This document shows positions 8,634-38,782 of a stretch of DNA of 43,702 nt, one piece after another (the stretch's first letter is position 1; every line of letters starts with the position of its first letter). The stretch comes from a virus. The notes under the pieces are model-generated. The model saw only the letters and a list, made by a program, of their open reading frames with translations. It ran no database searches and was not told the DNA's origin. The translations under genes were made by a program, and so were the position numbers. Location: the IMG/VR virus record IMGVR_UViG_3300030329_003107, positions 1 through 43,702 of that record. The stretch is one strand, 5' to 3'.

Positions 8634-8772
8634 TCTCCCTCCTCAATATTTGTTCTTGTTCCCAGTATTCATGGGCTATGGTAAATTGTCCGTCATTCCA
8701 TGCCCTCTGGAACCTCTCTCTATGTACGTTTGCTGCTTCTCTCATTTGGTGTAAGGCTTCATCTCTGCCCAA
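8587..8772 (-). CDS. Small helical hypothetical protein
   Basis: A 61-residue product, almost entirely charged helix (EALHQMREAANVHRERFQRA, then YWEQEQILRREIDK). The ATG overlaps the end of the DNA polymerase gene by 31 bases. No homology is recognised; the size and charge are typical of phage regulatory or inhibitor peptides. Confidence 0.6.
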   Translation of the reverse strand: MGRDEALHQMREAANVHRERFQRAWNDGQFTIAHEYWEQEQILRREIDKFTDSQRQGVRVT

Positions 8773-22814: not shown

Positions 22815-23213
22815 ATGACTGAAAATAGAGGTGGTGCGCGGCCCGGAGCAGGTCGTCCCAAAAAGCTAGACATTAATAAAGGCGAAGTGGTTGCAAAGAA
22901 ACTGCAGACCTCCTTTCAAGCCGGGCTGGAAGAGATAGGGACTAGTCTCCCTAAACTCATCAAGGCCAGCGTGGATAGTGCGCTTAGCGAGTCGAAGGAA
23001 TCAGGTACAGACCGTAGGTTCCTCATTAAGCTGTTTTCAGACATGGTTAAGATTACCGAGGATGATAAGACACCATATGCACAAATGATGCAACAGTGGG
23101 TACAGCAGGTGCAAGTAAATGTGGACGGAGAAAGCAAGGGACGTTATGAGGTATCTCAGCCTCGAACTGTCTCAGGAACAACAGGAAGTTTTATTACACC
23201 AGAGTCGCCTTAA
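22815..23213 (+). CDS. terS: Terminase small subunit
   Basis: A 132-residue product. The N-terminus ENRGGARPGAGRPKK is the AT-hook-like start typical of small terminases. A helical middle (LEEIGTSLPKLIKASVDSAL, then FLIKLFSDMVKIT) would form the oligomer. It binds the packaging site and brings the large subunit. The next gene overlaps it by about 70-95 bases in another frame. The ATG lies at the promoter's predicted start point. Confidence 0.85.
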   Translation: MTENRGGARPGAGRPKKLDINKGEVVAKKLQTSFQAGLEEIGTSLPKLIKASVDSALSESKESGTDRRFLIKLFSDMVKITEDDKTPYAQMMQQWVQQVQVNVDGESKGRYEVSQPRTVSGTTGSFITPESP

Positions 23214-24552
23214 AATAATTGGCGGTGGTGAGGGTGCAGGGAAATCCTTCCTTGGCGCGCTCACAGGTGTTGTAAGAGCAATAAGCGATGCGCACGAAAA
23301 CGGTTATGGAGAAGACCTCCTGTACTGGGTAGTCGGTGCGGACTTTGAAGACGCGCGTAAAGAACTTGAGTACATACACGAGTGGCTTGACGAACTAGGA
23401 CTAGTTGATAATTCTAAAACTTCTATCTCGACCCACAGAGACCAGAAGTGTATTCTTACTACTACGATAGGAGTTGTCTTTGAAACAGTATCTGGCTATG
23501 ACCCAAAAAAGATTGGAAGAGAGCAGCCACAAGGTATTATTGGGTGCGAAATCAGTCGTTGGCCCAAAGAGGTCTGGGACAGATGTTATGGTAGGTTGGC
23601 TCGTAGATACCACCGAGGCTCTTGGGGATTTTTTAGTGGCTCTTTTGAAACGAGTGAAGGCTGGTTTCCTGAGATGTGGGAAATTGGTCAAGCAGGCAAT
23701 GAACTAGATGTTACGAGCTTTTCGTTACCTGCATGGGCTAATCTTGCAATATATCCGGGCGGTGAAACGGACGCTGCAATAGAACAGTTAAGAGCGCAGA
23801 CTACAGAGCCTCGCTTCTTGGCGCGCTATGGTGGGCGGCCACATCCTCCGATAGACAGTGTGTTTCCAGAATTTAAACATGTGATGCATGTGGATGAACG
23901 GATAGAGTTCAATCCAAATGAATCAACTTACATATTTATAGACCCCGGAGATTTGGTTTATGCATGTGAGTTTATACAGTTCATAGATGATGAGGTGCAT
24001 GTGGTCGATGAGCTATATGTATCTCATTGGACTCATGAACAGGTTATGCAGGGCGTACAAACTAAACCAGCTTGGAATAACATAAAAGAGGGGGTGATGG
24101 ATATTGCAGGTACTCAGCATCATATGGGATTGGGCAGTGCGTTTGAAGCATGGCACAGAGACACAGGACTATCAATGGCAGTTAACAAATGGCCTGTTGA
24201 TGCGGAGCTGGAGAGACTGCGCTCGGTACTCGCCATTAATCCAACTACTGGACGGCCCAGACTTCGTATCAGCCCGAAATGTCAAGGACTGATAACAGAG
24301 ATGGGCGGCGGTACAGCACCAGTACATGGTATAGGTAGATGGAAGATAAGGAATGGTAAGCCCGAACTTCGGAACGACCATGCATGTAAAGCTCTATCCT
24401 ATGGGCTGCTAGAGAAGTTTGGTACAACAAGAATAGATGAACGCTCTGAGGTAATGGCTACAAGTTACCTCGGAAGTCGTAAAAGCGATAGTATATATGA
24501 CAGTGTACTGTGGCACAATCGTGAAGGAGTTAATCCGTGGCAGCCTCGTTAG
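23146..24552 (+). CDS. terL: Terminase large subunit
   Basis: About 468 residues from ATG 23146 (MRYLSLELSQEQQEVLL); the frame also opens at ATG 23119. Walker A is IIGGGEGAGKSFL, and a Walker-B-like strand ends in Glu (GIIGCEISRWP). The RNase H-like nuclease half begins with TYIFIDPGDLVYACEF (Asp), with more acidic residues later (GVMDIAGTQ, LRNDHACKAL). It translocates DNA into the capsid through the portal and cuts it. Overlap with terS is normal in this genome. Confidence 0.9.
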   Translation: MRYLSLELSQEQQEVLLHQSRLKIIGGGEGAGKSFLGALTGVVRAISDAHENGYGEDLLYWVVGADFEDARKELEYIHEWLDELGLVDNSKTSISTHRDQKCILTTTIGVVFETVSGYDPKKIGREQPQGIIGCEISRWPKEVWDRCYGRLARRYHRGSWGFFSGSFETSEGWFPEMWEIGQAGNELDVTSFSLPAWANLAIYPGGETDAAIEQLRAQTTEPRFLARYGGRPHPPIDSVFPEFKHVMHVDERIEFNPNESTYIFIDPGDLVYACEFIQFIDDEVHVVDELYVSHWTHEQVMQGVQTKPAWNNIKEGVMDIAGTQHHMGLGSAFEAWHRDTGLSMAVNKWPVDAELERLRSVLAINPTTGRPRLRISPKCQGLITEMGGGTAPVHGIGRWKIRNGKPELRNDHACKALSYGLLEKFGTTRIDERSEVMATSYLGSRKSDSIYDSVLWHNREGVNPWQPR

Positions 24553-26258
24553 ACGATATATTATCAGCAAGTGAACAATATTATGGGCAAGCTCATGAGC
24601 AAATGAACGATGCCGATAACTTATACAATCAGGACTTCTATCTAAATATAGACTTGCCTGAGAATATTAACGTACACAAATCTTCTAAGGCTACACAAAT
24701 AGTAGACAACCTTAGAGACCAGATACGTGTAGACGAGCCTGTAGTTGTATATCGTGAGCGCAGCCCAAAGCAGAAAGACCAAGAGCATAAGGCTCTTCTT
24801 GAGCAGTGGGGCCAGAATACGCTGGCACAACTCAGTCAGTCTGGTATGATTGACCCTCTGGGGCAAGCACCTCACGACCTGATACTTCGAGGCGCGGCAT
24901 GTGTCAAGATTATAGTACGTGAAGATAGTTTAGAAGATAAGCCGTCAAAGGTTAGTAAGCGCGCGTGGGAGGCAGAGATGTCTCACAAACCGCACTTCAT
25001 GCTAAAACCTGTTGACCCTCTAAACTGTTTCCCTTCGCCGGGAAATGAACTAACCTACATGGTTGAGAAGCAGAGAAGGCGTGTTATAGATATACGAGAA
25101 TCCTACCCCCACTGGTCAGACCCCAAGGCAAAGAAGTTTGGTAAGAACCTTGCTGACAATCCTTTACGAGAAGTAGAGTGGGTAGAGTTCTGGACTCGCG
25201 ATGAATACATCGTAGAAGTCGATGGTGACAGAATAATTGACCAACCCAACCCATACGGAATAATACCGTATGTCTACAGGTATAGCGGTCTGGGCCGATA
25301 CAATGCGGATGGTAATCCAAAACATTTAGCGGTGGGGATTCTCCATAGCATACAGGGCGAGCTAGAAGCCGAAATCGAAGTCAAAACTGCTATGCGTGCG
25401 GCGTGGCAGTACCATGTATTCCCCAGACTGTTAACTACCGATGACCCTTCCCAAGTAGCCCAACAGTTTCAGAAGGGGCCGGGCGCAGTGATTAAGCATG
25501 CCCCAGAACGCCCTCCACAATGGCTAGATTCCCCACCGCCCAATCAGCACATGATGGAGTTTCTAAATTCCATAGACGAGAGTATACGGCGCACAATACC
25601 TGCTGCTTTAATGGAGAGGCAGGCAGATGCTGGTATACACCAAGCACTTCTCATAGGGCAGGCACTAAAGATAATTAGTCCTGTTAAGAAGGCTTTGAAC
25701 TCTATGGGAACTGAAGTTCTAAACAAGCTGAGTCATCTCATGAATTGGTTTGAACTGTCACAGTCAGTTCAAGGGCCGAGAGAAGGTGACAGTACTCGAA
25801 TGGTACGAGGTAAAGACTTCACCCACCATCAGTTTGAGGTAACCTTTGAAGCTACAGACCCAAGTGAGGATGACAGAAGAATGCTCAGCGCATTGGCTGT
25901 CAAACGCGAGCCGGGTCTTATCTCTCGTGCTACATATAGAGAACGCTTCCTTAAAGGTGTAATTCCTAATGGTGAGGAAGAGGAAGAGAAGATAATGGCT
26001 GAGCAGGTTGTTGACCAGCTTGTACAGAGCGGAATGCTAGTACAGGAAGTTATGGCACAGATGCAAGCACAGCAGCAACAAGATAACGCACAGCAAACTG
26101 CAGACGGACTGGCAGGTCGTATGAGAGATAGAGCTGGCGGTGCAGCAGATGTTATTGGTGGCCCAGAACGAAACATGGAAGGTATCATGGGTGGTGGCGG
26201 TGGAGGAAGGATTCCAGTAGGTCTAGAAAATGAAGGCATGGCTAACGCAGGGGTATAA
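24537..26258 (+). CDS. Portal protein
   Basis: A 573-residue product from GTG 24537 with AAGGAG seven bases upstream. The beginning has the portal-type pattern of a helical start, a D-rich segment, and a K-T-x-D-type DNA-contact region. The middle holds PHFMLKPVDPLNCFPSPGN and EVEWVEFWTRDEYIVEVDG, then a helical stem (EAEIEVKTAMRAAWQYHVFP). The C-terminus is Gln/Gly-rich. It follows terL and is the usual size. It forms the dodecameric DNA gateway of the capsid. Confidence 0.85.
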   Translation: MAASLDDILSASEQYYGQAHEQMNDADNLYNQDFYLNIDLPENINVHKSSKATQIVDNLRDQIRVDEPVVVYRERSPKQKDQEHKALLEQWGQNTLAQLSQSGMIDPLGQAPHDLILRGAACVKIIVREDSLEDKPSKVSKRAWEAEMSHKPHFMLKPVDPLNCFPSPGNELTYMVEKQRRRVIDIRESYPHWSDPKAKKFGKNLADNPLREVEWVEFWTRDEYIVEVDGDRIIDQPNPYGIIPYVYRYSGLGRYNADGNPKHLAVGILHSIQGELEAEIEVKTAMRAAWQYHVFPRLLTTDDPSQVAQQFQKGPGAVIKHAPERPPQWLDSPPPNQHMMEFLNSIDESIRRTIPAALMERQADAGIHQALLIGQALKIISPVKKALNSMGTEVLNKLSHLMNWFELSQSVQGPREGDSTRMVRGKDFTHHQFEVTFEATDPSEDDRRMLSALAVKREPGLISRATYRERFLKGVIPNGEEEEEKIMAEQVVDQLVQSGMLVQEVMAQMQAQQQQDNAQQTADGLAGRMRDRAGGAADVIGGPERNMEGIMGGGGGGRIPVGLENEGMANAGV

Positions 26259-26483
26259 ATGGAAAGAGATATAACAGGACGAGCAGTCCAACAAAGTGCA
26301 AAGATTGTAGCTCGTGTTTTAGAAAGAGTTACTACTAAAGTACCTCTTGGGCCTTCGCAAGTCAAGATGACACCAGAGGAGATGAGAAGAGAGGTTAGTA
26401 AAATGCGTGGGGAGCCATTACTTAGAATGGCTGAGATGCTTGGTAATGAAGAAGTACTACGAGCAATGAGGGAGAACCAGTAA
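26259..26483 (+). CDS. Small hypothetical protein after the portal
   Basis: A 74-residue, basic, helical product (AVQQSAKIVARVLERVTTKV, then PEEMRREVSKMRGEPLLRMA). ATG directly follows the portal stop. Its stop overlaps the next ATG (TAATG). It is likely a small virion or assembly protein, by position only. Confidence 0.65.
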   Translation: MERDITGRAVQQSAKIVARVLERVTTKVPLGPSQVKMTPEEMRREVSKMRGEPLLRMAEMLGNEEVLRAMRENQ

Positions 26484-29400
26484 TGGCTAGAAAAAAACAA
26501 AGGAAGATAAAAGGCTCCAGTTACGGTTCTATGGAGGAATTGCTTCCTCCTTTTCAGCCTCCTAATTCTGGCGCAACGGCGGCTGGTAATGCTCCGGGGA
26601 ATGGGCAAGGGGCATACGCTCCCCCTGATGAAATGCAAATGATGCCGGAGAACATAGACCCCTACCAATCAGGGCAGCCCGGCGATGTATTAATGAAAAC
26701 TCCACAAATAGGGTCATGGCTGCCATATACTCAAGAGTGGATGCCGGAGGATATAAGCGGCACTGGGTTAATGTCCTCTATACCATCTGTACGTCCCGGT
26801 GGAGTGCATCACGCGCAGGTCTATCCTGACTCCCCATATATGAAGAGCAAGTCTGGGAGATATAATAATAATGTCGCCCACAGTGGGATGATACGAACTG
26901 ACGGCCCAGAATCTCTTGGCTTAGTTCAAAACGAGCAAGGAGAGTGGGTAAAGGTAAGTGCCATTAGCCCAGATGGGACTCCATCTGCACCACAATCATG
27001 GGCGCAAGGTGCAAGGAATTATATTGTTGGGCAGCAGGAAGCAAAACAAGAGTGGATGAATAGGGAAGGAATATCTCCTCAAGAAGCAGATGCGCTAGAG
27101 GCTCAGATGATGGAACAGGGTGGAGGGGTACAAGACTTAGCTAAGCTCTATGCTTCAAGTAGAACTGGGCAGATTGGGCCGCCGCAGACATGGGCGCAGG
27201 GTGCGCAAGAGTTTAAGAGAAGAGCAGGGGCATCATATGAAGATGATATATATAACAATACAGCACCCCCTATAGAACAAAAAACTCCTGTAGAAACTGT
27301 TCCCTCGTTCGCAGAGCAAGTAGGACAGTCTCAGAGGAGCGCGGCGATAGGGCCGGGCTATGGTTCGTATGAAGATATTGAAGGAACTCAAGGGCCACAA
27401 AATATTCCTGCGTGGCAAAGGTCTAGTCAGCCTCCTGACACTATTGCGCAACAAGCAGCAGAAGCTACTAGGGCAGGGACATCATATGAACAGGATATGC
27501 ATGAAGGAACACCTACCCCAGTTGGTCAGGATAGGCTGACAGGAATGCCACAAAAGAGTCTTGCTGAAATGGCAAAAGAAAGACAGACAGCGGTTGGCCC
27601 CGGTCAAAGTACAACAGAGACTGGAGATACAGTGGCTCCACCAACAGGGTCAGGGTTTCTGGGTTCTATTGCTGGAAAAATAGGTTCTATTACAGGAGTG
27701 ACAGACGAAAGGCAAAATCTTTTTGGCATACCTTTTGATAAAGACCCTGCTGGAGGGCATAAAGGTTCTATTACCCACGGCGGTAGAGACACAGGTGTTG
27801 AGAAGATAGAAGAAGCACGCGAACTAGAGCAAATGATGGGTGGGGCAGGCGGTTCAGTGTATGGAGGAGTGCCGGGATTAGATTCTGGTTCTCCACTAGA
27901 ACGCGACCCTGAGTCTCAATATCTATATCCTAGTGGGGAATATGGAGCTGAACCCCCTCGTCAAGCATTCCAGACAGCTTATCAAGCATTAAAAGAAAGG
28001 AAGGGTGGGGTAGACCCCTCTGCAGCCGAAACAGCAAATTTATATAAGCAATTTATTGCGCCCGAAGGCGGGCCAGATATAATGGGTGGTATTAATGTTG
28101 ACCGTACTGTAGAGGCTATTGAAGCAGGTAAGGAAGCATTAACACAGAATCCAGTTGCTGATAAAGTCGAGCAGATAGTAATGGGATTGCCCACTTCTGA
28201 CGGTGGCGACTTAGATACAGTAGAGGGAAGTGGCTTTGGTAATTATGGAGGTAGGGGAATAGACCACGATAAAGCTGCAGCAGAAGCAGCCGCAAAAGAA
28301 GCAGCCGCTGACGACCGAGCTGGTTTATATATGGGCGATGAAAATAATGTGACAGAAGATGGTAGAGAAATTATTACAACAGAAAGCGGCGAAAAAATTC
28401 TTGGGCCGCATAGTGACCCACAGTCAAGTACTGCAAGTAGAGTAGGAGGAGAAGGTACTAGGAATGCTGGGTATAGTCCTCAAAATACTATGAATAGTGT
28501 AAGTAACATGTCTAGGATATTAGTTGGTGATTTAACCAACCGCGCAAATAGGGATGAGCTGATGCGTAATATGAGCGTTACTATGCCAGATGGATATACT
28601 TGGGACAGTGAAACAAAAAAACTTGAATTTACAGGTGGAGCTATAAACATACCGGGGGAGGAACCAGTACCAGCAGACGAAAGTTTGAAAAGAAGCTCTT
28701 TAGAAGAGGAAGCTCAACTAAGAGCCGCACTAGAATTAAAAGATATTGCTATGGACAGTCTTAGAAAATATGCTGCTACTGATGCAGATTTGGCTGCTCA
28801 GATAGGATTTATGGAAGCTCAGTCTGCACAGGAAACAGCAGACTTTGAGAAGCGGCGCGAAATAACCACTATAAAAGGCCCAGCAGGGGAAGCCGCGCGC
28901 AACAAAGTTACAGAGGATGCAACTGCATACACTACTAGTATAAATAATGCTTTTAAAGCTATAGGAAGCGGTGCTGAAAATGCGTATGCTGATGCACATA
29001 CTGCGCTCTCAGCCCCATTACCACCAGCACCTTCTGGCCTTGGTTGGGACAGTGCCACTGGTACAATGGAGTTCCGAGAAGGTTTTGAAGGAAGAGAGAT
29101 GGACGAGGCTACACGAAAATGGGTTGCTGCTGTAACACCTGCATTCAAGGCTCGTGACAGATTGGAAATTGCTGTTAGGGAAGGCATAAGATTAGAACAG
29201 GAATTTCAAGACAACCAAAGAGAAATACAAGAGGCTGACGAAAGATTTAATATGCACATGGCTACTGCACAAATTGATTCTGCAGAGGAAGCTGCTGCTA
29301 AACTAAAAATGGCTGAACAGAAAGCAATAGAGTTTGGGCAGCAAAAAGAATACCTAGAGTTATTAATGGGTATAATGCAAAGCCCAGTACAGATGGGCAT

Positions 29401-29677
29401 GGCTAAACGATATGGACTTCTTGACCAAATAACTACTAAGATGGGCTTCAATATACCAGAGGGGTTAATACCAACAGCTCCTTCTGGCGAGGCGGCTCTT
29501 GGAACCCCTAACTATAATGACTGGGTTACTATGGACAAAGAACAGCAGGCTATGGCTATTGCTTCATACGTTGAAGCCGGAGGCAACCAAGAGGAATTTT
29601 ACAATATGATTGGGAAAAGTCGTCCTATAGCAGGAATGCACGAATCTTCCCAACCAACACAATATGGCGTACTGTAG
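26483..29677 (+). CDS. 1064-residue putative internal virion protein
   Basis: The first 500 residues are Gly/Pro/Gln-rich and low in predicted structure, with internal repeats: PQSWAQGARNY (about 170) against PQTWAQGAQEF (about 234), and AGASYEDDIYNNT (about 249) against AGTSYEQDMHEGT (about 331). After about 700 it becomes helical and charged (LRAALELKDIAMDSLRKYAA, FDNQ-type stretches such as EFQDNQREIQEADERF). There is no transmembrane helix. Size, position before the giant protein, and composition suggest an ejected internal protein or long scaffold. No enzyme motif is seen. Confidence 0.6.
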   Translation: MARKKQRKIKGSSYGSMEELLPPFQPPNSGATAAGNAPGNGQGAYAPPDEMQMMPENIDPYQSGQPGDVLMKTPQIGSWLPYTQEWMPEDISGTGLMSSIPSVRPGGVHHAQVYPDSPYMKSKSGRYNNNVAHSGMIRTDGPESLGLVQNEQGEWVKVSAISPDGTPSAPQSWAQGARNYIVGQQEAKQEWMNREGISPQEADALEAQMMEQGGGVQDLAKLYASSRTGQIGPPQTWAQGAQEFKRRAGASYEDDIYNNTAPPIEQKTPVETVPSFAEQVGQSQRSAAIGPGYGSYEDIEGTQGPQNIPAWQRSSQPPDTIAQQAAEATRAGTSYEQDMHEGTPTPVGQDRLTGMPQKSLAEMAKERQTAVGPGQSTTETGDTVAPPTGSGFLGSIAGKIGSITGVTDERQNLFGIPFDKDPAGGHKGSITHGGRDTGVEKIEEARELEQMMGGAGGSVYGGVPGLDSGSPLERDPESQYLYPSGEYGAEPPRQAFQTAYQALKERKGGVDPSAAETANLYKQFIAPEGGPDIMGGINVDRTVEAIEAGKEALTQNPVADKVEQIVMGLPTSDGGDLDTVEGSGFGNYGGRGIDHDKAAAEAAAKEAAADDRAGLYMGDENNVTEDGREIITTESGEKILGPHSDPQSSTASRVGGEGTRNAGYSPQNTMNSVSNMSRILVGDLTNRANRDELMRNMSVTMPDGYTWDSETKKLEFTGGAINIPGEEPVPADESLKRSSLEEEAQLRAALELKDIAMDSLRKYAATDADLAAQIGFMEAQSAQETADFEKRREITTIKGPAGEAARNKVTEDATAYTTSINNAFKAIGSGAENAYADAHTALSAPLPPAPSGLGWDSATGTMEFREGFEGREMDEATRKWVAAVTPAFKARDRLEIAVREGIRLEQEFQDNQREIQEADERFNMHMATAQIDSAEEAAAKLKMAEQKAIEFGQQKEYLELLMGIMQSPVQMGMAKRYGLLDQITTKMGFNIPEGLIPTAPSGEAALGTPNYNDWVTMDKEQQAMAIASYVEAGGNQEEFYNMIGKSRPIAGMHESSQPTQYGVL

Positions 29678-29688
29678 AAGGAGTATGA

Positions 29689-32600
29689 ATGGTTAACTTT
29701 TTACCACCTTGGCAGGAAGACGAAAAAGCACCAGAATTTATTCGTCCTTTAGAAAGCCATATAATTAACCCTATGCTGATTACACAGGGTAAAACTGAAT
29801 ATCATGCAGAGCGCGCTAAGAATCTGGCTACTATGCCACTTGTACAGCAGCAGCATCAAGAGCCGCTTACTATCTCTCAAGGTTACCATCAGGTTGGTAT
29901 GGACATGGCTGACCCTAATGTGCAGAAAGACCCTGCATGGTGGCAGAAAGCTCTAGCTAAACTTGAGCCTTTAAAATATATAGATATAGTCCCAGAGCTG
30001 GCAGTGCAGGCTGTGGAAGGTGTTATTCCGGGCAAGTGGGCAGGTGAAGGTACTGCTCCGCGTGAGAACTTCGAGTCTTGGAAAGCCTTGTTTGGTGAAG
30101 ACCAAGGAAGTTTTAAACAAAGAATTGATGCTGCAGCGGATGCTTTTGAAAAACGTCCGTTATGGTTCCAGATTGGTGTTGGAATAGGAGCAGGTCTTGT
30201 TACATTTGGTACAGGCACAGTTGCTAAAGGGTTAGCTATGGGAGGCAGTAATGCTGGAAAATTAGCAGCCGCTTCGGTAAGAGGTGCTGGATATCTGGTA
30301 GACCCGGCTGAGATGGGTGTTCAAGCTGTTAGTAAAAGTGTTAAGGCAACTAATGCCTTTGTAAGAACTGTTCGTGACGGCAAGCCCTACATGGAAAGAG
30401 TAACCCCACAAATGATGGCTGTAGAAGGAGGCTCGTCAGATATTGAGGACTTCTATAGCGCAGCACGAAGAAATGAAATACGAACAAGTTTTCATCTAAT
30501 ATCTAATGAACAAAGACTATTAGATTTGTTCCCTTATAACAGCTATGAGAATATGAATGCTCCTTTATTTGGCTATCGTGGGCAGGAAGGCGCGCGTTTT
30601 AAGATAGATACAACTACTAACCCCGGCGCACCTTGGGGAGCAGCAGACCATCCTACAAAACTTCCTCCAATATTACATAGAGGCAATGAGTTTAGAAGAC
30701 TCTTTGGTGACTTGTCTAGGTCACAGCGTACGAGTATAAACGACCCTGTTAATGCAGAAATTCTTGAAGAAGCTAGAGACTTAGCAATACTGGTAATGCA
30801 ACTAGGAATGGCTTCTAGGCCGGGTGCAATTACAGGACTAACATATAGAGACCTTAAAAATTTCCTTAAAACCCAGACAATAACTGTAAGGGGCAGCAAT
30901 GAATATAGACAAGGTACGCTCTATAGCTTAGATGAATTAGAATCTCTAGGTGCTGTAGAGAACTATATAACTAGATTAGAGGAGTGGGCAGAGCTTAATA
31001 ATTTTAAATTAGAAGACAGTACTAGGGCATTTACTTTAGAAAATAAAAAAGATGGCATTGATTTCTTTAAAGCAGGCGCAAGTAATACAAAGAATGAAAA
31101 TAAGTATCGTAGTACACTTAAAAGAATAGTAGATAAATATAAACCTAATTATGAAATTACGGACGATGCTAAGACTATTCGTAACCAGCGTGTATCTGAA
31201 GAATGGCTTATGGGTACGCCTCTTGAAGACCTTCAAATGCAACTGGGGCATGCAGATATAGACCATACTCTTGGGTATATTCATGACATAGATTTGCACA
31301 TAGGTACACCACAAGATGCTATACAGTCAGTCCCTCTTCGCCAACTCATGCTAGGTGCTGGTGTATTAGAGCAGGCTGCTGCATCCGGGTCAACCGTATT
31401 AGAGGATATAGGAAGGAATTTATCTAGCTTAAATATTGCCTTGAATGCTGCAAAAATAGCAGGTGTAGTAGGCAGAGCTAAAGGTAAGACTGTTGGTGGA
31501 GAAATAGGAAATGACCTGATGGCTAGGGTTGGGGAGACATACCTGCGTAGTGATGAGCTTAGACATATAAATGTAGATGATTGGAATTTATATAATGCTC
31601 AGAGAGACTTGGGGGATGTTGTAGATACATCAGTACTAGATTTAACTGAAGAGGTAATTAGGGTATCTGCAATTCAAGAAATAGTAAAAAACTCACGAAA
31701 GGGTTATAATCAGATATTTGCTAAGTTTCGTGGTATATCTTCGCGTAGTTGGAAACCTAAAGTTGCAGGTAAACAAAGAGATATAACATTCTGGGGTAAA
31801 TTGCAACGTGCAGGCTATGACTTAAAAGGCGATAAACTAGTCAAGCCTACAGACCCTAGGGCTATTCAAGACCGTGCAGACTATGCTGTAGAAACTGGAC
31901 TTATTAGGGAACTTGGTGACGGTACAACTACACAGAGTGCCGCACAGTGGGATGCATGGGCTTTAGGACTTGCTGAAGAAAGAAAGACTCTTCGTAATAT
32001 TCTTGATGATTATGGACATTTAAAGTATGTGAAAGATGATGGTACTGTTGGAGGCAAGTCGAGGCATCTTCTACATGAAGTTCTTGACCAATATGTACTT
32101 GGTAAAATGTACCACATAAAGCAGCAATGGAATAACTTGGTAAGAGATGGGTTAGTAGATAGTAACTCTGACCATTTTGCTAAGCTAATTGACTATATAA
32201 TTGACGGAAATGCTAGTGCGAATATAGTAAATGCTAGTGGTTCTGACGGTGCATATTGGAAAGGGCTGAACGAAGCTAAGAAGGCATTAAAGCATTCGGA
32301 TATATTAGACCCTTACACATGGCGCAATCTAGGCCCACAGCAGTTTAAAGATGTAGGTAACAATATACGAATTAGTACCAAGCCTATTATATATCGTGGT
32401 AGAAAAATTGTCATGGCAATAATGCCTGATGGAACTAGACAGCCATTCTACTTTAGAACTGGGAGAGGCGGCCCTCTTGCTGAAGGCAAGGGACGAGAGT
32501 GGCGACCCTTTGATGGGATAGCCCCAATCATTTCTGAAAATGGATGGATGGATAAAGCAGTATACGCATTAGGAGAGGCAGACGACCCTGCAAGTGAGTG

Positions 32601-35600
32601 GTATCGTTATGGTGTAAATAACCATACTATTAGAGAGGTTGCTAGGCACTTAGATAGCATAAGTGACCAGATTCCAGATGGGCCTGTTGCAAATAACTTA
32701 GAACAGGTTAATGAGTTTTTACAAGTTAAGTATAATAGCTCTAGGCAAGGGGACTGGCAGGATGGCAAGAACATGGCTTGGGAAGATGTTTCGCCACACG
32801 CTGAAGAAATTACAGGTGCTAGAGGATACCTAGAAGCCGACTACAAACAGAAGAACCACCATATAAGAATGTGGCTTAGAGACCCGAATGTTAGAGAAGC
32901 ATTAAAGATGTACAGGTTTAGTAGGGACAGTAGCCCAGAAAAGATAAGAGAAAAACTTGGGTCGCTTGCTGTTAATACTCCTGATATGTTTGGGCCGGGC
33001 TTTACTAAGCTAGCTAAAAATAAAGGTGAGGCAGAGAGATTTCTGGACGACATAACCCAGAGAATGGTTCTCCATAGAGAAGAGTGGTTAGAAGAGTATG
33101 CGCATGCAAACGTAAGGGCGTTAGTTGGTAAAGATGCAGAGACAGAAGTATTTACACAATTACGTAAGCCTCTTGGTGACGCTAAAGATATAAGAGAGTA
33201 CCACGGAATTTCTGTTGAGAGTGCTGTTAAATCTCCAGACTTAGAAAACCATGTGCCTAGAATCAGAAGTGTTGAGTGGATGAAAAGGTTGGCTGCTAAA
33301 GATTCGGGTGTACTGGGCTTTTTTAATAAGAACTTATTTCAGACTGCTGTTTCTGCCCTCTCAGGCGGTAAGGCAATGTTTGGAAGAAGTATAATTAAAC
33401 CGATTGCTGCTAGAGCTTACTTATATTCTAGACATGAAAGGGACGCAATTCATCTTGGAGTTCTAGCAAAAGCTGTTATGGAAGATACACAAGATGGGTT
33501 GGGGATGAAGACAATTGATGCTACTGAAGAGATGCAAAGATTAGGTATTATGAAAGGTAACCAGTACTTCTCTGCGCTAGAACTTCGTCCTTTAGAAGAA
33601 ATAAGGAAGTTTGAAAGTCTACAAAGCACACAAAATATATACGCACAGATAGGTAGACTAGCAAATAAAGCAAGTAAGGAAGGTTTTAAACCAGCACTCA
33701 AGAAGATAACACGCGTTACAGGGTTGCACGAGCGTGGTTATGATGAAGCTGCCCAGATAGGGGATGACCTATCTAATCCTTCTAATATGCTAAGACAGGT
33801 AGACGTAGTGCTGGAAAGAATACTTCCAGAACATTGGGAACATTATTTTAGTAACTTAAAAACCGCTGACGGACAATACACGCAACAGTGGCATGCTCTT
33901 AGGTATATTAAAGAGTTACAGAATCAAGTAGACCAAGTCGCTAAAAGTCGCGGACTAGATATTGTTGCAAGTATAAGAGCCAATGAAGGAACATACTTAG
34001 CTAACTATTTCCCAAGACTTTACAGAAGAGGAGACCAAAGATACAGGCTTGGCGCGCCCCAAAGAGAAATTGGTAATATATCGCGGAATAACTTTGTATC
34101 ACAGTTTCAGCCAAGACAGTTGCCAGATATACTAGACCAACTTGGTAAATCTCTAAATACTGTAAGCAAGACATCAGACGAACTAATAGCTTCTGTTCTT
34201 GAATCTACAGATGACCGTTTAGCAATGTACTATGAGTCTATAATGAAAGAAGCTACTGACTTACAGACAAAGAAACATATTCTTGACATGGACTATTCTA
34301 AGAACTACGCCAAGGGTGTTAAAGAATTTAAACAGAAAGATGACGAGTTAGATAATTTAAGTAATTTGCTTAATGCTAAACTAACAGGTATGGTTACTGG
34401 AGATGCAAAATGGACTGCTAGAGCGGATAAACTATTACGTTCTAATTACATAAAACACTATAACTGGTTGGTAGACGATAACCCTGCATCAGTGGAACGC
34501 GCAAGAGCAGCACAAGACGAGATATTTAATTATATTGACCAAGAGCGTATGCAACTTGGATATGAAAAAGAATTAGTAGAAGGACAGCGAGTAATATCAG
34601 ATGACTGGATGCGAGCAGTATGGAAGAAGTTACCACCTGCTGAGCAGCAGGCTGCGCGCGAACAATTAGAGCTGACAGCTCCTGCACTTGTAAAACCTAT
34701 TACAGAACTTGGTAAGCAGGCATATCCTATTACTAACATACTTCGCACATTTAAAGCTGGTATTGACGTAGGTGCGCCTATGATACACGGTTTTAATGCT
34801 CTTGTTAGGCTTCCAATGCTAGATGGTAAGTTTGACCTTGCCTCTCAAAAGGCTTGGTGGACTGGTGTTAAGCAGATGTATAGGTTCTTGTGGAATCCAG
34901 ACAATCTGGACACCTATATTGTTGATAATTATGCACTTAGGCAGGAGGCTAGTGAGTGGATAAAACTAGGTTCTGCAGAGCCTTTATCCGCAGCTTTAGG
35001 TGAGTCAGCATTTATGCAAAGGTTTAAGAAGAATGCTTCGAAGGCTTGGATTAAAAGTCCACTGCCGGGCGTACAGGGCAAGCCAGACTTTAGATTACTA
35101 GATAGATTTGAGTCAGGATTCGTTGGGTATACAGATGTGCTACGTCTTGAACTATATAAAGCGTTTAAACCTTCTGTAGACAGGCAGCTACGCAGGGACT
35201 ACCCAAAAATTAAACTGGATGATACTGCAGACCCTATAGTAAGAAATGCCTATCATGAAATGGGCGCGACCATAAATAAGATGACTGGAGTATTTGACCA
35301 AGAACTGGCAGCACAGTCTCCTATGCAGAGAATACTAGAGTCTAGCTTACTATTCTTCGCCCCGATGTATAGACGAGCAGTGTATGGTATCATAGCTGAT
35401 ATATTCAGAAGCTCTGAAGGTGGATGGACAGCCGTTCCGGGCCAGAGTCTAAGGTCTAGAGAAGCTCTAAAGCAGCTAACTGGAGTAGTCGGCGTAGGAG
35501 CTATGATAGCTTCGTTAGTTGACATGACTGGAAATAACCCAGAAGGTGCAGGAGATATAGAGAACTTTATTATGCATGGGGATGACCCTAACCTAACTCA

Positions 35601-37206
35601 TAAGTTTGGTAAAATGAATATCTCTGGAGTACATACAGGTATTGGCACAGCATGGTGGACAGCTTTTAGATTGGCTAGTGACCTAGCAATGATAGGGTAC
35701 GGTGAGGATAAACCCCTAGACGATGAGAACAACAACTGGATGAAAGACAATGCAGTACTTAGACTACTGCAGAGAAAGGGCAGGTCACAGCTTGCTCCGG
35801 GTGCAGGTTTGTTAACGGACTTTGTACTAGGTAAGTCATTCTCTGGAGACCCTCTAAGAGACCCTGATGGGCTTTGGGGATACGACTGGTCAGAATCAGT
35901 ATTCCATGTTGGAAAGGCTGCATTCCCATTCTGGCTAGATGGTGCAGCGTCTGGTAGTTGGGGTGATGGGTCAGCACCTTTAATGATGACTAGTGAAGCT
36001 CTAGGATTTACCTCCTATAAGATGAGCGCATACGATAGGCTATCACAGGCCAGACAGTATCATCTAGCGACTTCACAGATAGAGGAGATAAAGACTTGGA
36101 GAGAGGAGGTGGAAAAGGAAAATGGCGAAGTAAACTGGCTTAATGCGTCAGGCCCAGTAAAAAGAATAATTGATGATGAGCTTCCAGATGTAGCTATACT
36201 AAAGATGGAAGCCGAAAAAAGGGCTGCCGTATTCGCAGAAGGACAAAGTGGAGAGTATAGAGACTTCTTGTCACGCAAGGCTTACCAGACCCAACTAACC
36301 ATGCGAGATGTTAGTACGTTTACTATGCAATGGGAAAAGAACGAAATAGATGGTAGGACATTAGGCATGCAGATTGCAAAGGTAAAATACAACAGAGCTA
36401 AAAGCAATGAGGCTTTGTTAGCGTCTTACCCTGCATTAGAAAATTATCTTAACGATTTAAAAGCTGGTAAGTCTAATAAAGACAAACTGTTTTGGGGTAA
36501 GATTTTCTATGATGCCTACCAAGCTCAAGTAGCACATCATCCAAGTAATATAAATGATGATGGTACTTTCAACTTCCAAAACAGGGAGAACCTACATCTA
36601 CAGTTCCTAGAAGACCATAATATCGATAACGATGGGAAGGAGATGGCCTATATAAGAGAAGAGCAGAATGCATGGATGGATGCTAACCCAGTACTTAAAT
36701 CCTATATAGAAGATAGAGAGGCATTAAAACCATACTGGCAGGCACACAAACTTATATGGAAACCCGGTACTAGGGGACATATGCTAGCTTCGTATTATGT
36801 TAGTCTCTCTACATCTAATAGAAAAGCACTAAGAGATGCCCGACCAGAATTTGCTGCAATTGACAAGAAGATAAGGGCAACAAGAAAAAGACTAAGAGAG
36901 CAAAGTCCTTATTATGACTGGTTACTTGTTAAGTGGGGCTATGTATCTGCACCAACACACGGTAATGTACAAAGACTTAAAGAACAGCAAGATGCTAAGA
37001 AAAAATATGCTAGAATGCAGGAGCTAACTAATCCTGATAGCTGGCCTTATGAAAGTCCAAAGAGGGATAGAATATTTGTAAATATATCAGGAAGGATAGA
37101 GATAAGAAAAGGTGTAACGGATTCAGAGGTGGTCAGAACAACAGAAGGAGAAAGAGTAAGTTTCTTATCAGAGGAAGACCAAGCGTTATTGACACCGGGA
37201 CTATAA
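29689..37206 (+). CDS. 2505-residue virion protein with embedded tyrosine-recombinase domain (large polyvalent-type)
   Basis: ATG 29689 has GAAGGAG upstream. About 160-185 is hydrophobic (GVGIGAGLVTFGTGTVAK). About 340-545 reads as a tyrosine recombinase: Arg377 in MASRPGAITGLTYRDL, Lys495/Arg498 in DDAKTIRNQRVSEEWL, His521 in LQMQLGHADI and Tyr530 in DHTLGYIHD, with H521-Y530 spacing of 9 as usual. The beta-hairpin Lys is not obvious (Arg401). About 1680-1945 matches the helical tail of phage large polyvalent proteins (LRTFKAGIDVGAP; GATINKMTGVF; LESSLLFFAPMYRR; then GVVGVGAMIASLVD). It may be packaged and ejected with the DNA. Catalytic activity is unproven. Confidence 0.75.
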   Translation: MVNFLPPWQEDEKAPEFIRPLESHIINPMLITQGKTEYHAERAKNLATMPLVQQQHQEPLTISQGYHQVGMDMADPNVQKDPAWWQKALAKLEPLKYIDIVPELAVQAVEGVIPGKWAGEGTAPRENFESWKALFGEDQGSFKQRIDAAADAFEKRPLWFQIGVGIGAGLVTFGTGTVAKGLAMGGSNAGKLAAASVRGAGYLVDPAEMGVQAVSKSVKATNAFVRTVRDGKPYMERVTPQMMAVEGGSSDIEDFYSAARRNEIRTSFHLISNEQRLLDLFPYNSYENMNAPLFGYRGQEGARFKIDTTTNPGAPWGAADHPTKLPPILHRGNEFRRLFGDLSRSQRTSINDPVNAEILEEARDLAILVMQLGMASRPGAITGLTYRDLKNFLKTQTITVRGSNEYRQGTLYSLDELESLGAVENYITRLEEWAELNNFKLEDSTRAFTLENKKDGIDFFKAGASNTKNENKYRSTLKRIVDKYKPNYEITDDAKTIRNQRVSEEWLMGTPLEDLQMQLGHADIDHTLGYIHDIDLHIGTPQDAIQSVPLRQLMLGAGVLEQAAASGSTVLEDIGRNLSSLNIALNAAKIAGVVGRAKGKTVGGEIGNDLMARVGETYLRSDELRHINVDDWNLYNAQRDLGDVVDTSVLDLTEEVIRVSAIQEIVKNSRKGYNQIFAKFRGISSRSWKPKVAGKQRDITFWGKLQRAGYDLKGDKLVKPTDPRAIQDRADYAVETGLIRELGDGTTTQSAAQWDAWALGLAEERKTLRNILDDYGHLKYVKDDGTVGGKSRHLLHEVLDQYVLGKMYHIKQQWNNLVRDGLVDSNSDHFAKLIDYIIDGNASANIVNASGSDGAYWKGLNEAKKALKHSDILDPYTWRNLGPQQFKDVGNNIRISTKPIIYRGRKIVMAIMPDGTRQPFYFRTGRGGPLAEGKGREWRPFDGIAPIISENGWMDKAVYALGEADDPASEWYRYGVNNHTIREVARHLDSISDQIPDGPVANNLEQVNEFLQVKYNSSRQGDWQDGKNMAWEDVSPHAEEITGARGYLEADYKQKNHHIRMWLRDPNVREALKMYRFSRDSSPEKIREKLGSLAVNTPDMFGPGFTKLAKNKGEAERFLDDITQRMVLHREEWLEEYAHANVRALVGKDAETEVFTQLRKPLGDAKDIREYHGISVESAVKSPDLENHVPRIRSVEWMKRLAAKDSGVLGFFNKNLFQTAVSALSGGKAMFGRSIIKPIAARAYLYSRHERDAIHLGVLAKAVMEDTQDGLGMKTIDATEEMQRLGIMKGNQYFSALELRPLEEIRKFESLQSTQNIYAQIGRLANKASKEGFKPALKKITRVTGLHERGYDEAAQIGDDLSNPSNMLRQVDVVLERILPEHWEHYFSNLKTADGQYTQQWHALRYIKELQNQVDQVAKSRGLDIVASIRANEGTYLANYFPRLYRRGDQRYRLGAPQREIGNISRNNFVSQFQPRQLPDILDQLGKSLNTVSKTSDELIASVLESTDDRLAMYYESIMKEATDLQTKKHILDMDYSKNYAKGVKEFKQKDDELDNLSNLLNAKLTGMVTGDAKWTARADKLLRSNYIKHYNWLVDDNPASVERARAAQDEIFNYIDQERMQLGYEKELVEGQRVISDDWMRAVWKKLPPAEQQAAREQLELTAPALVKPITELGKQAYPITNILRTFKAGIDVGAPMIHGFNALVRLPMLDGKFDLASQKAWWTGVKQMYRFLWNPDNLDTYIVDNYALRQEASEWIKLGSAEPLSAALGESAFMQRFKKNASKAWIKSPLPGVQGKPDFRLLDRFESGFVGYTDVLRLELYKAFKPSVDRQLRRDYPKIKLDDTADPIVRNAYHEMGATINKMTGVFDQELAAQSPMQRILESSLLFFAPMYRRAVYGIIADIFRSSEGGWTAVPGQSLRSREALKQLTGVVGVGAMIASLVDMTGNNPEGAGDIENFIMHGDDPNLTHKFGKMNISGVHTGIGTAWWTAFRLASDLAMIGYGEDKPLDDENNNWMKDNAVLRLLQRKGRSQLAPGAGLLTDFVLGKSFSGDPLRDPDGLWGYDWSESVFHVGKAAFPFWLDGAASGSWGDGSAPLMMTSEALGFTSYKMSAYDRLSQARQYHLATSQIEEIKTWREEVEKENGEVNWLNASGPVKRIIDDELPDVAILKMEAEKRAAVFAEGQSGEYRDFLSRKAYQTQLTMRDVSTFTMQWEKNEIDGRTLGMQIAKVKYNRAKSNEALLASYPALENYLNDLKAGKSNKDKLFWGKIFYDAYQAQVAHHPSNINDDGTFNFQNRENLHLQFLEDHNIDNDGKEMAYIREEQNAWMDANPVLKSYIEDREALKPYWQAHKLIWKPGTRGHMLASYYVSLSTSNRKALRDARPEFAAIDKKIRATRKRLREQSPYYDWLLVKWGYVSAPTHGNVQRLKEQQDAKKKYARMQELTNPDSWPYESPKRDRIFVNISGRIEIRKGVTDSEVVRTTEGERVSFLSEEDQALLTPGL

Positions 37207-37217: not shown

Positions 37218-37260
37218 AAAAGTGGAGTACCTGCGTGGGACATCCAAGGAGGCACTAACC

Positions 37261-37905
37261 GTGGCAGAGTATGACGATAGTAGTCAGGACAGCAGCAGTA
37301 CTAACGCAGAAGCGGACATCGCTGACGGAGTATCTGACGAACAGAAGAACTGGCAACGACAACTGAACCGGGCCAGAGACCAGAACAAGGAGCTATTAAA
37401 GGGATATTTGGAGTTAGGTGAAACCAAGGCAGCCTTATCACGTGTAGAGGGTGCGGTTGAGTCACTTGTTGACCACTTTGCGCAAAGCGGTTACGATGAC
37501 TCTCCATTGGCAGGAGTCAAGGATAGCTTATCTCAGCAGAGACAGAGGGACACTTCCATGTTGATGCACAGAACCCAGATTGCCGATGTATTACACGACA
37601 ACGATGCTAATTGGGACGGAGAACAAATGGCAGAAGCTAGGGCTAAGTGGCAAGCAGGAGACCATGCAGGTGCATTGGCCTCAGTACAGTCAGCTTTTGC
37701 GCAGCCAGTGGAGAATATAGACGATGAGGTTGAGCGAAGAGTACAAGAACGCCTACGAGAGGCTGGCAGAGGGGTCGATTCTGGCTCCTCTACAGCAGCA
37801 GGCAGTCGACGCTTAACACTCAATGACGCTAACATTTCTCCCGGCATGAGCGATGCAGAGATGAAAGCTCGTGCTGATTCGGTATTAGACCAATTTTTTA
37901 AATAG
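37261..37905 (+). CDS. Putative capsid scaffold protein
   Basis: About 214 residues from GTG 37261, chosen because AAGGAGG is 8 bases upstream; the frame opens at GTG 37222. Acidic N-terminus (EYDDSSQDSSSTNAEADIAD) and charged helices (QKNWQRQLNRARDQNKELLK), then Ser-rich and a final helix SDAEMKARADSVLDQFFK. This composition and the position right before the capsid gene are typical of scaffolding proteins. Confidence 0.75.
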   Translation: MAEYDDSSQDSSSTNAEADIADGVSDEQKNWQRQLNRARDQNKELLKGYLELGETKAALSRVEGAVESLVDHFAQSGYDDSPLAGVKDSLSQQRQRDTSMLMHRTQIADVLHDNDANWDGEQMAEARAKWQAGDHAGALASVQSAFAQPVENIDDEVERRVQERLREAGRGVDSGSSTAAGSRRLTLNDANISPGMSDAEMKARADSVLDQFFK

Positions 37906-37915
37906 GAGTATATAA

Positions 37916-38782
37916 ATGGCAACAGGAGCGGCAGAGTTTATTGACAATACTACTGCTGATGTCTTCATACCAGAAATTTGGTCTACCTTGGCAATTGTCG
38001 CACGAGAAGCACAATTAGTCTTTGCTAAGTTAGTAGACCGAAAATTTGAGGATGGCCTTGTAAAAGGGGACAAGATTCATGTTCCTAATATTAGTGATTT
38101 AGCCGCAAGGCAGAAAACGGCTAATACGGCTATCACATATGAGACAGTCACAGAAACAAACACAACTATCACCGTAAACCAGCATTACTATGCTGCGATT
38201 GCGGTTGAGAGTATAACTAAAGTACAGTCCGACAGAGACATGCTTGCAGCTTATGCAGGCAAATTAGGGTACGCCTTGGGGTTAAACGTAGATGATGCGC
38301 TAGCCTCAAGAGTAGAAGCTGACTGGTCTTCACAGACAGTTGGTTCCCTCGCTGCGGAGAATACATACCATGACTATCTGAGGGCTATCCAGTATCTGGA
38401 TGATGCAAATGCCCCGGCAGACAGTCGGTACTTTGTAATTTCCCCGGCGGCAGAAGTCGGTCTGTTAAAAATGGATACATATATAAACAATGACTATACG
38501 AACATTCACGGCTCTGGTCGTGACACTTCGTTAGAAAAGGCTTATATATCTTCCTTCCTCGGAGTACCAGTCTACAAGTCTACTAACGTGGACGGTAGCA
38601 ACTCTGCAGGACACGACAACACACTCTTCCAACGCGAGGCCCAAGCACTAATAATGCAGATGACCCCGGACATGCACACTATGTTTGACATAGATTACTT
38701 CGCTGATAAGGTTGCTATCGAGCAGCTATACGGCGAGGAGGTCATGAGGTCTGACCACGGAGTTTGGATTAAAGGAGCATAG
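37916..38782 (+). CDS. Major capsid protein
   Basis: A 288-residue product with GGAG before the ATG. The N-terminus TTADVFIPEIWSTLAIVARE, then FAKLVDRKFEDGLVKGDKIH and YYAAIAVESITKVQSDRD, and the C-terminal FLGVPVYKSTNVDGS and DMHTMFDIDYFADKVAIEQL match capsid proteins of the P22-gp5/HK97-like fold found in many marine phages. It forms the icosahedral shell. No maturation protease is visible nearby. Confidence 0.85.
   Translation: MATGAAEFIDNTTADVFIPEIWSTLAIVAREAQLVFAKLVDRKFEDGLVKGDKIHVPNISDLAARQKTANTAITYETVTETNTTITVNQHYYAAIAVESITKVQSDRDMLAAYAGKLGYALGLNVDDALASRVEADWSSQTVGSLAAENTYHDYLRAIQYLDDANAPADSRYFVISPAAEVGLLKMDTYINNDYTNIHGSGRDTSLEKAYISSFLGVPVYKSTNVDGSNSAGHDNTLFQREAQALIMQMTPDMHTMFDIDYFADKVAIEQLYGEEVMRSDHGVWIKGA

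Follow-up and report, generated by a model that had tools for sequence, protein, structure and literature searches.

Introduction

RNA polymerase and lysozyme activities, as well as activities that modify the host, are carried by the proteins that phages eject into the cell. Phage T7 has the internal core proteins gp14, gp15 and gp16, and we know of no recombinase in gp16. In the Schitoviridae N4 and DEV, one ejection protein is a giant virion RNA polymerase, whose gene lies beside those of two other ejection proteins (PMC10925440, PMC12633501). Large multidomain proteins of virion gene clusters that bear nucleic-acid enzymes have also been surveyed as polyvalent proteins (Iyer et al., 2017, PMC5512222); the words “integrase” and “recombinase” do not occur in the text of that survey. 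VLF-1 of baculoviruses and nudiviruses is a virion-associated member of the tyrosine recombinase superfamily. In baculoviruses it belongs to the nucleocapsid and takes part in packaging, and virus in which its conserved tyrosine is mutated is non-infectious (PMC11654684, PMC3649998). Our searches of full-text, open-licence PMC papers brought up no description of a tyrosine recombinase within a virion or ejection protein of a phage.

Here we describe, as judged from aligned sequences, a lineage of uncultured bacterial viruses in which a recombinase with an intact core active site is located inside a giant protein. The window, i.e. the whole stretch of 43,702 nucleotides that was analysed (IMG/VR record IMGVR_UViG_3300030329_003107), encodes one of these proteins. 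Like the virion RNA polymerase of N4 and DEV, it is a giant enzyme-bearing polypeptide encoded next to putative ejection proteins; in contrast to the latter system, the enzyme is a recombinase, the giant protein and its homologues are shorter (2300-2650 aa versus ~3400-3500 aa), no sequence relation was found between the two, and ejection is deduced here from the genes. As in T7, neighbouring genes specify putative internal proteins of small, medium and giant size, in a phage that is probably short-tailed, but the gene order differs from that of the T7 internal core (here these genes lie between portal and scaffold) and no homology was detectable. The likeness to polyvalent proteins lies in the combination of large multidomain proteins, virion gene clusters and nucleic-acid enzymes, although the large polyvalent protein associated domain 38 (LPD38) was matched in a single homologue only (L006), weakly and below the cut-off (E 0.0067). 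VLF-1 shares with our protein the association of a tyrosine-recombinase-superfamily member with the virion, a location that is only probable in our case; it differs in being mostly stand-alone (~350-470 aa in our fold matches), in belonging to eukaryotic viruses and in having an assembly role, with no giant fusion. Finally, the PF00589 recombinases (P2 Int, XerA/XerD, IntI4, Cre) have the same catalytic fold and the same order and spacing of R-R-H-Y, whereas the domain of the window forms part of a 2505-aa protein of the head cluster in which no core-binding domain was recognised, is acidic, and is variable at the box II H/K and beta-hairpin Lys positions.

A giant protein encoded among head genes

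The genes of the head cluster and the best-conserved part of the giant protein are the following.

23119-24552, plus strand: terminase large subunit (PHROG 2, E 3e-18)
24537-26258, plus strand: probable portal, 573 aa, directly following the terminase (weak match to the PHROG 332 head-tail adaptor, E 0.34)
26259-26483, plus strand: small conserved ORF of 74 aa between the portal and the 1064-aa gene, no known family assigned
26483-29677, plus strand: 1064-aa protein, just upstream of the giant gene, candidate partner ejection protein
29689-37206, plus strand: giant recombinase-carrying protein, 2505 aa, 283 kDa, in an open ORF; probable ejection/polyvalent-type virion protein
34906-37098, plus strand: best-conserved part of the giant protein, residues 1740-2470 (alignment A1), predicted mostly helical
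37222-37905, plus strand: probable scaffold, 227 aa, immediately before the major capsid protein
37916-38782, plus strand: major capsid protein (MCP; PHROG 267, E 6e-36; tblastn to annotated capsid proteins)

We recovered the same order (terminase, portal, 74-aa ORF, 1064-aa gene, giant gene, scaffold, MCP) in the relatives as far as their contigs reach, and the scaffold precedes the MCP as it does in Cyanophage PP and Mycobacterium phage CCUG48898T-2. The sequence-only reading had described the giant protein as portal-adjacent. Its gene is indeed flanked by head genes, but the 74-aa and 1064-aa ORFs separate it from the portal gene. The 74-aa ORF was kept in the eight relatives aligned; a conserved 224-bp gap after the portal gene, which had been considered as a recombination site, turned out to be this small ORF. 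The 1064-aa protein has a low-complexity N-terminus, and its conservation is confined to the C-terminal ~250 aa.

Direct searches with the whole giant protein retrieved no relative among viral contigs or annotated phages, because this protein diverges fast. Relatives were reached instead via the capsid protein, the portal gene, a profile of the terminal region, the N-terminal region and a subclade profile. The homologues obtained (2335, 2548 and 2647 aa, plus partial ones) share the gene position. Six contigs span the recombinase domain (the window, L020, L023/L064, L026, L059 and L066), and the domain was present in every homologue covering this region. We could rule out that the giant ORF results from a frame fusion or an assembly artefact, since independent contigs show the same fusion within one open frame.

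The identity between the window and its relatives was 88% for the terminase, 84-93% for the portal, 76-82% for the scaffold and 69-95% for the capsid protein, versus 28-38% for the giant protein. Within the latter it varied by region: 33-40% at residues 20-230, 17-34% in the recombinase domain, 14-25% at residues 546-1050 and 33-40% at residues 1701-2470. The segment 26483-37206 appears as a sharp fast-evolving island (~30% identity for the giant protein, the 1064-aa protein being alignable only in its C-terminal part) between head genes that are 69-95% identical. In the phage collection, the relatives of the capsid protein and terminase were 22-30% identical among the matches listed, and neither the giant nor the portal protein had a cultured relative there.

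Outside the recombinase domain, the giant protein gave no match in Pfam, PHROG or the PDB, known ejection proteins included. The AlphaFold2 model of its C-terminal 731 residues was of low confidence (pTM 0.44), and its comparison with the PDB in search of ejection-protein folds gave no meaningful match. No conserved HExxH metalloprotease motif, by which the domain might be released, turned up.

The giant ORF is the longest of the genome, and neither Pfam nor PHROG revealed a tape-measure-like gene, a combination that fits a short-tailed phage with large internal proteins. Packaging and ejection of the giant protein are plausible in view of its size, its gene position, the analogy with N4 and T7 and the fact that no stand-alone integrase was recognised; we consider that it is probably packaged in the virion. 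It could plausibly represent an ejection/polyvalent-type protein with a new enzymatic cargo. Alternatively, the giant protein may never enter the virion and be an intracellular late protein that happens to be encoded among head genes; its virion location is deduced from the genes, and this leaves some room for such a role. However, its size, the position of its gene between the portal and scaffold/MCP genes and the conserved 1064-aa neighbour match the gene sets of ejection and polyvalent proteins, and we find an exclusively intracellular protein improbable.

Affinities of the embedded domain

The domain itself was delimited as follows.

30706-31323, plus strand: tyrosine recombinase catalytic domain, residues ~340-545 (PF00589, profile versus PDB, fold search)

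The PF00589 (Phage_integrase) model covered residues 360-533, with an E-value of 9.6e-4 for the whole protein and of 1.9e-5 for the domain slice, the score of the latter (24.9 bits) being just under the gathering cut-off (27.1 bits). The L020 homologue exceeded this cut-off with 31.1 bits. The domain also matched the PHROG integrase family 216 (E 6.6e-5), and its nearest NCBIfam profiles, far below their cut-offs, were those of XerS/XerA/XerC and integron integrases. A single-sequence search of PDB sequences was uninformative. The profile built from the six homologues matched P2 Int (8.6e-6), a XerA/XerC-like enzyme (1.7e-5), IntI4 (3.9e-5) and XerD (2.8e-4) in the PDB, and tyrosine recombinases exclusively at E<=0.001; a subset profile limited to the window, L020 and L023 gave a nearly identical list. 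The most diverged subclade (A7, L059/L066) and L026 had no PDB recombinase match when used alone, and their membership therefore rests on alignment (hhalign for A7, A4 for L026). The hhalign comparison of the two subclade profiles had an E-value of 3e-5, with R, R, H and Y aligned.

The AlphaFold2 model of the domain (pLDDT 65.5, pTM 0.67) was compared with the PDB by Foldseek, and tyrosine recombinases accounted for 50 of the 50 matches listed, including Cre, Tre, XerA, XerH, Tn1549 Int, P2 Int and IntI4 (best E 3.5e-3, probability ~1, TM 0.3-0.47). Given these modest TM-scores, the model backs the family rather than the fine geometry. The sequence-only reading had staked its assignment on a structural match to tyrosine recombinases, and this match was found with the AlphaFold2 model and Foldseek. 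The catalytic domain that it had placed at about residues 340-545 was recovered concordantly by PF00589, by the six-homologue profile and by all the fold matches listed, and we thus consider a tyrosine recombinase fold, predicted from both sequence and model, as nearly certain. We obtained no Pfam match at E<=1 for an N-terminal core-binding (SAM-like) domain before the catalytic domain. Some members of the tyrosine recombinase family have little or no core-binding domain, which is therefore not defining for the superfamily.

In the viral fold library, the domain model matched both integrases and VLF-1 proteins. By analogy with VLF-1, the domain could act in the producing cell or in the particle at the time of packaging, either in concatemer processing or in the binding of genome ends. 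Such a role would agree with the involvement of VLF-1 in packaging, with the loss of infectivity upon mutation of its conserved tyrosine and with the location of our gene among head genes. On the other hand, the virus has its own large terminase available for concatemer cutting, and a packaging role does not need a fusion to a fast-evolving giant protein; it seems unlikely to us, slightly more so than the action on host DNA considered below.

Type IB topoisomerases, one of which is carried by poxviruses, share the superfamily catalytic residues R-K-R-H-Y and the corresponding chemistry. The domain could then be a swivel of this type, relaxing DNA at packaging or ejection, and the box II K of the window and L020 resembles that of the type IB family. 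However, the sequence and fold matches were with recombinases and not with type IB topoisomerases, and the box III context (LGH...T..Y) is recombinase-like. We therefore view a topoisomerase-like swivel as very improbable.

Conservation of the active site

The residues discussed below are encoded at the following positions.

30817-30819, plus strand: R377, box I catalytic arginine (SRPGAI), invariant in six homologues
30907-30909, plus strand: R407, invariant arginine where the beta-hairpin is expected (alignments A4/A2, A5)
31171-31173, plus strand: K495, box II H/K position, variable in the alignment
31180-31182, plus strand: R498, box II catalytic arginine, invariant
31249-31251, plus strand: H521, box III histidine (LGH), invariant
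31276-31278, plus strand: Y530, putative nucleophile, invariant in A4 and hhalign-aligned

The active-site residues proposed from the sequence of the window (R377, K495xxR498, H521 and Y530) were correctly positioned, with spacings of 121 residues between the two arginines, 23 between R and H and 9 between H and Y. Loss of R377, R498, H521 or Y530 in close homologues had been named as an outcome that would refute the assignment; all six divergent homologues retained R377, R498 and H521, together with a Tyr at the Y530 position or close to it. This did not extend to K495, which is present in the window at the proposed place but is replaced in several homologues (K, K, E, Q, Q, S). The beta-hairpin Lys, thought to be missing, is indeed absent in the window and L020, but by eye a Lys is found nearby, preceding the invariant R407, in L023, L026, L059 and L066. 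In the window and L020, R407 might take over the role of the absent Lys. In L059 and L066, the Tyr is located 11-12 residues past the His, versus 9 elsewhere; the position Y530 is unaligned for these two homologues in the whole-protein alignment but aligned in A4 and in the profile-profile comparison.

In A4, where the homologues are 17-31% identical to the window, only 7 of the 236 columns were invariant: R377, R407, L430, R498, L519, H521 and Y530. The four active-site residues named beforehand are all among these seven (hypergeometric p 2.8e-7). In the whole-protein alignment, the invariant columns of residues 207-696 were limited to N333, R377, R407, R498, L519 and H521. The domain being among the faster-changing parts of the giant protein, its invariant active site is all the more telling.

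The domain could nevertheless be a catalytically dead DNA-binding remnant anchoring the giant protein to the packaged DNA, an interpretation close to the non-catalytic relic that had been envisaged from the sequence. It would be consistent with the lack of conservation of the beta-hairpin Lys and of the box II H/K, as well as with the acidic character of the domain (pI 5.5). Against it, there is no variation at R377, R498 and H521 and a Tyr persists at or near Y530 despite 17-31% identity, while nearly all other positions in residues 207-696 are free to change. Because R377, R498, H521 and Y530 are among only seven invariant columns, a relic becomes quite improbable, and the conservation pattern suggests that the domain is probably catalytically competent.

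Proposed action on the incoming genome

The best explanation overall, to which we assign a probability of roughly 40%, is that the giant protein is ejected together with its recombinase and that the latter acts most likely on the incoming phage genome. In a phage that is probably short-tailed, the giant protein would be stored inside the head close to the portal and would leave the particle before the DNA or alongside it, as do T7 gp16 and the giant N4/DEV virion RNA polymerase. Once ejected, the domain would cut and rejoin DNA via a covalent 3'-phosphotyrosine at Y530. Its substrate would most likely be the incoming phage genome, whose redundant ends could be joined or resolved into a circle before new phage proteins are made. 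Cre acting at loxP can circularise the genome of phage P1. We favour action on the incoming genome because a pre-loaded recombinase would be most useful on linear DNA from which no phage gene is yet expressed.

The different parts of this proposal are not equally firm. If the rest is granted, the odds that the phage's own genome is the substrate are about even. The more inclusive statement that a giant ejection protein may deliver a ready-made site-specific recombinase, which would recombine either the incoming genome or host DNA before phage expression, falls a little short of even odds. Several observations speak against an ejected recombinase, namely the acidic domain, the variable box II H/K, the Lys missing in the window and L020, and the H-Y spacing of 11-12 residues in two homologues. 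The same holds for the negative searches, which gave no core-binding domain with Pfam, no lox/dif-like site that stood out in the window and no PDB match for the C-terminal model. In addition, the genome-encoded RecA-like ATPase and nucleases could themselves circularise or repair the DNA.

If this proposal is correct, the lineage would use a previously unreported viral route for bringing a recombinase into the infected cell, and its giant protein would parallel the virion RNA polymerase of N4, with a recombinase as the enzyme. A packaged and active domain would represent a new enzyme class among those delivered by virions, and the circularisation, resolution or integration of phage DNA by a pre-loaded enzyme would become testable. 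Some caution is also called for when a phage genome yields a Phage_integrase match, which does not necessarily imply lysogeny.

Genome content and possible action on host DNA

The record corresponds to essentially the whole genome. Its right end lies inside an open tail-fibre-like ORF (40727-43702), the last residues of which recur within the ORF entering from the left end. Positions 1-1647 and 40727-43702 belong to one repeat-rich tail-fibre-like gene, whose internal repeats probably interrupted the assembly. The syntenic relative G010 (42368 bp) has two ends that are identical over 99/100 bp and was therefore taken as complete.

The absence of a stand-alone integrase, already suspected from the window alone, was confirmed by a six-frame search in which the giant-protein domain was the sole PF00589 match of the genome; the same was true in G010. 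No integrase or repressor was recognised among the ORFs scanned with Pfam and PHROG. The minus strand carries a replication module with a UDG-DNA polymerase A fusion, AAA ATPases, a PD-(D/E)XK nuclease and an ERCC4-type nuclease. In the fusion protein (8742-11108, minus strand), a uracil-DNA glycosylase domain is N-terminal to a family A DNA polymerase (PF03167 + PF01612 + PF00476), and the protein is 77% identical in G010.

These searches bear on the possibility that the ejected recombinase targets host or resident DNA rather than the phage genome, through phage integration, hijacking of a dif-like site or disruption of a plasmid or prophage. Host-facing parts are expected to diverge fast, and the giant and 1064-aa proteins do so (~30% identity versus 69-95% for the head genes); the nearest NCBIfam profiles, though far below cut-offs, also belong to Xer proteins and integron integrases. 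However, this fast divergence spans the whole giant protein and not the domain alone. Among the genomes of ~85,000 bacterial and archaeal species, none yielded a relative of the giant protein, and there was thus no sign of integrated copies. The window contains no tRNA gene, and no lox/dif-like inverted-repeat site stood out in it with 11-bp arms, a 5-9 bp spacer and at most one mismatch, the single match being inside an ORF and judged to be due to chance. We thus regard action on host DNA as unlikely. Among the alternatives considered for the function of the domain, action on host DNA ranks highest, closely followed by a VLF-1-like packaging role; a dead anchor comes next and a topoisomerase-like swivel last. 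An ejected recombinase acting on the incoming phage genome remains the reading that we prefer.

Two other records are of interest in this context. IMGVR_UViG_3300025131_000111 (40595 bp; L072/L073 with L005) carries the capsid protein of the lineage (95% identical) and the end of a giant protein, and also has a second set of virion genes comprising an HK97-type capsid, a portal with Mu F, a tape measure and a terminase. This record is probably the product of chimeric assembly or, if not, a hybrid phage. IMGVR_UViG_3300032087_003063 (G022; L055, 7372-7707, minus strand) is a distant capsid relative with a weak Phage_integrase match inside a 389-aa ORF, which is probably an ordinary stand-alone integrase.
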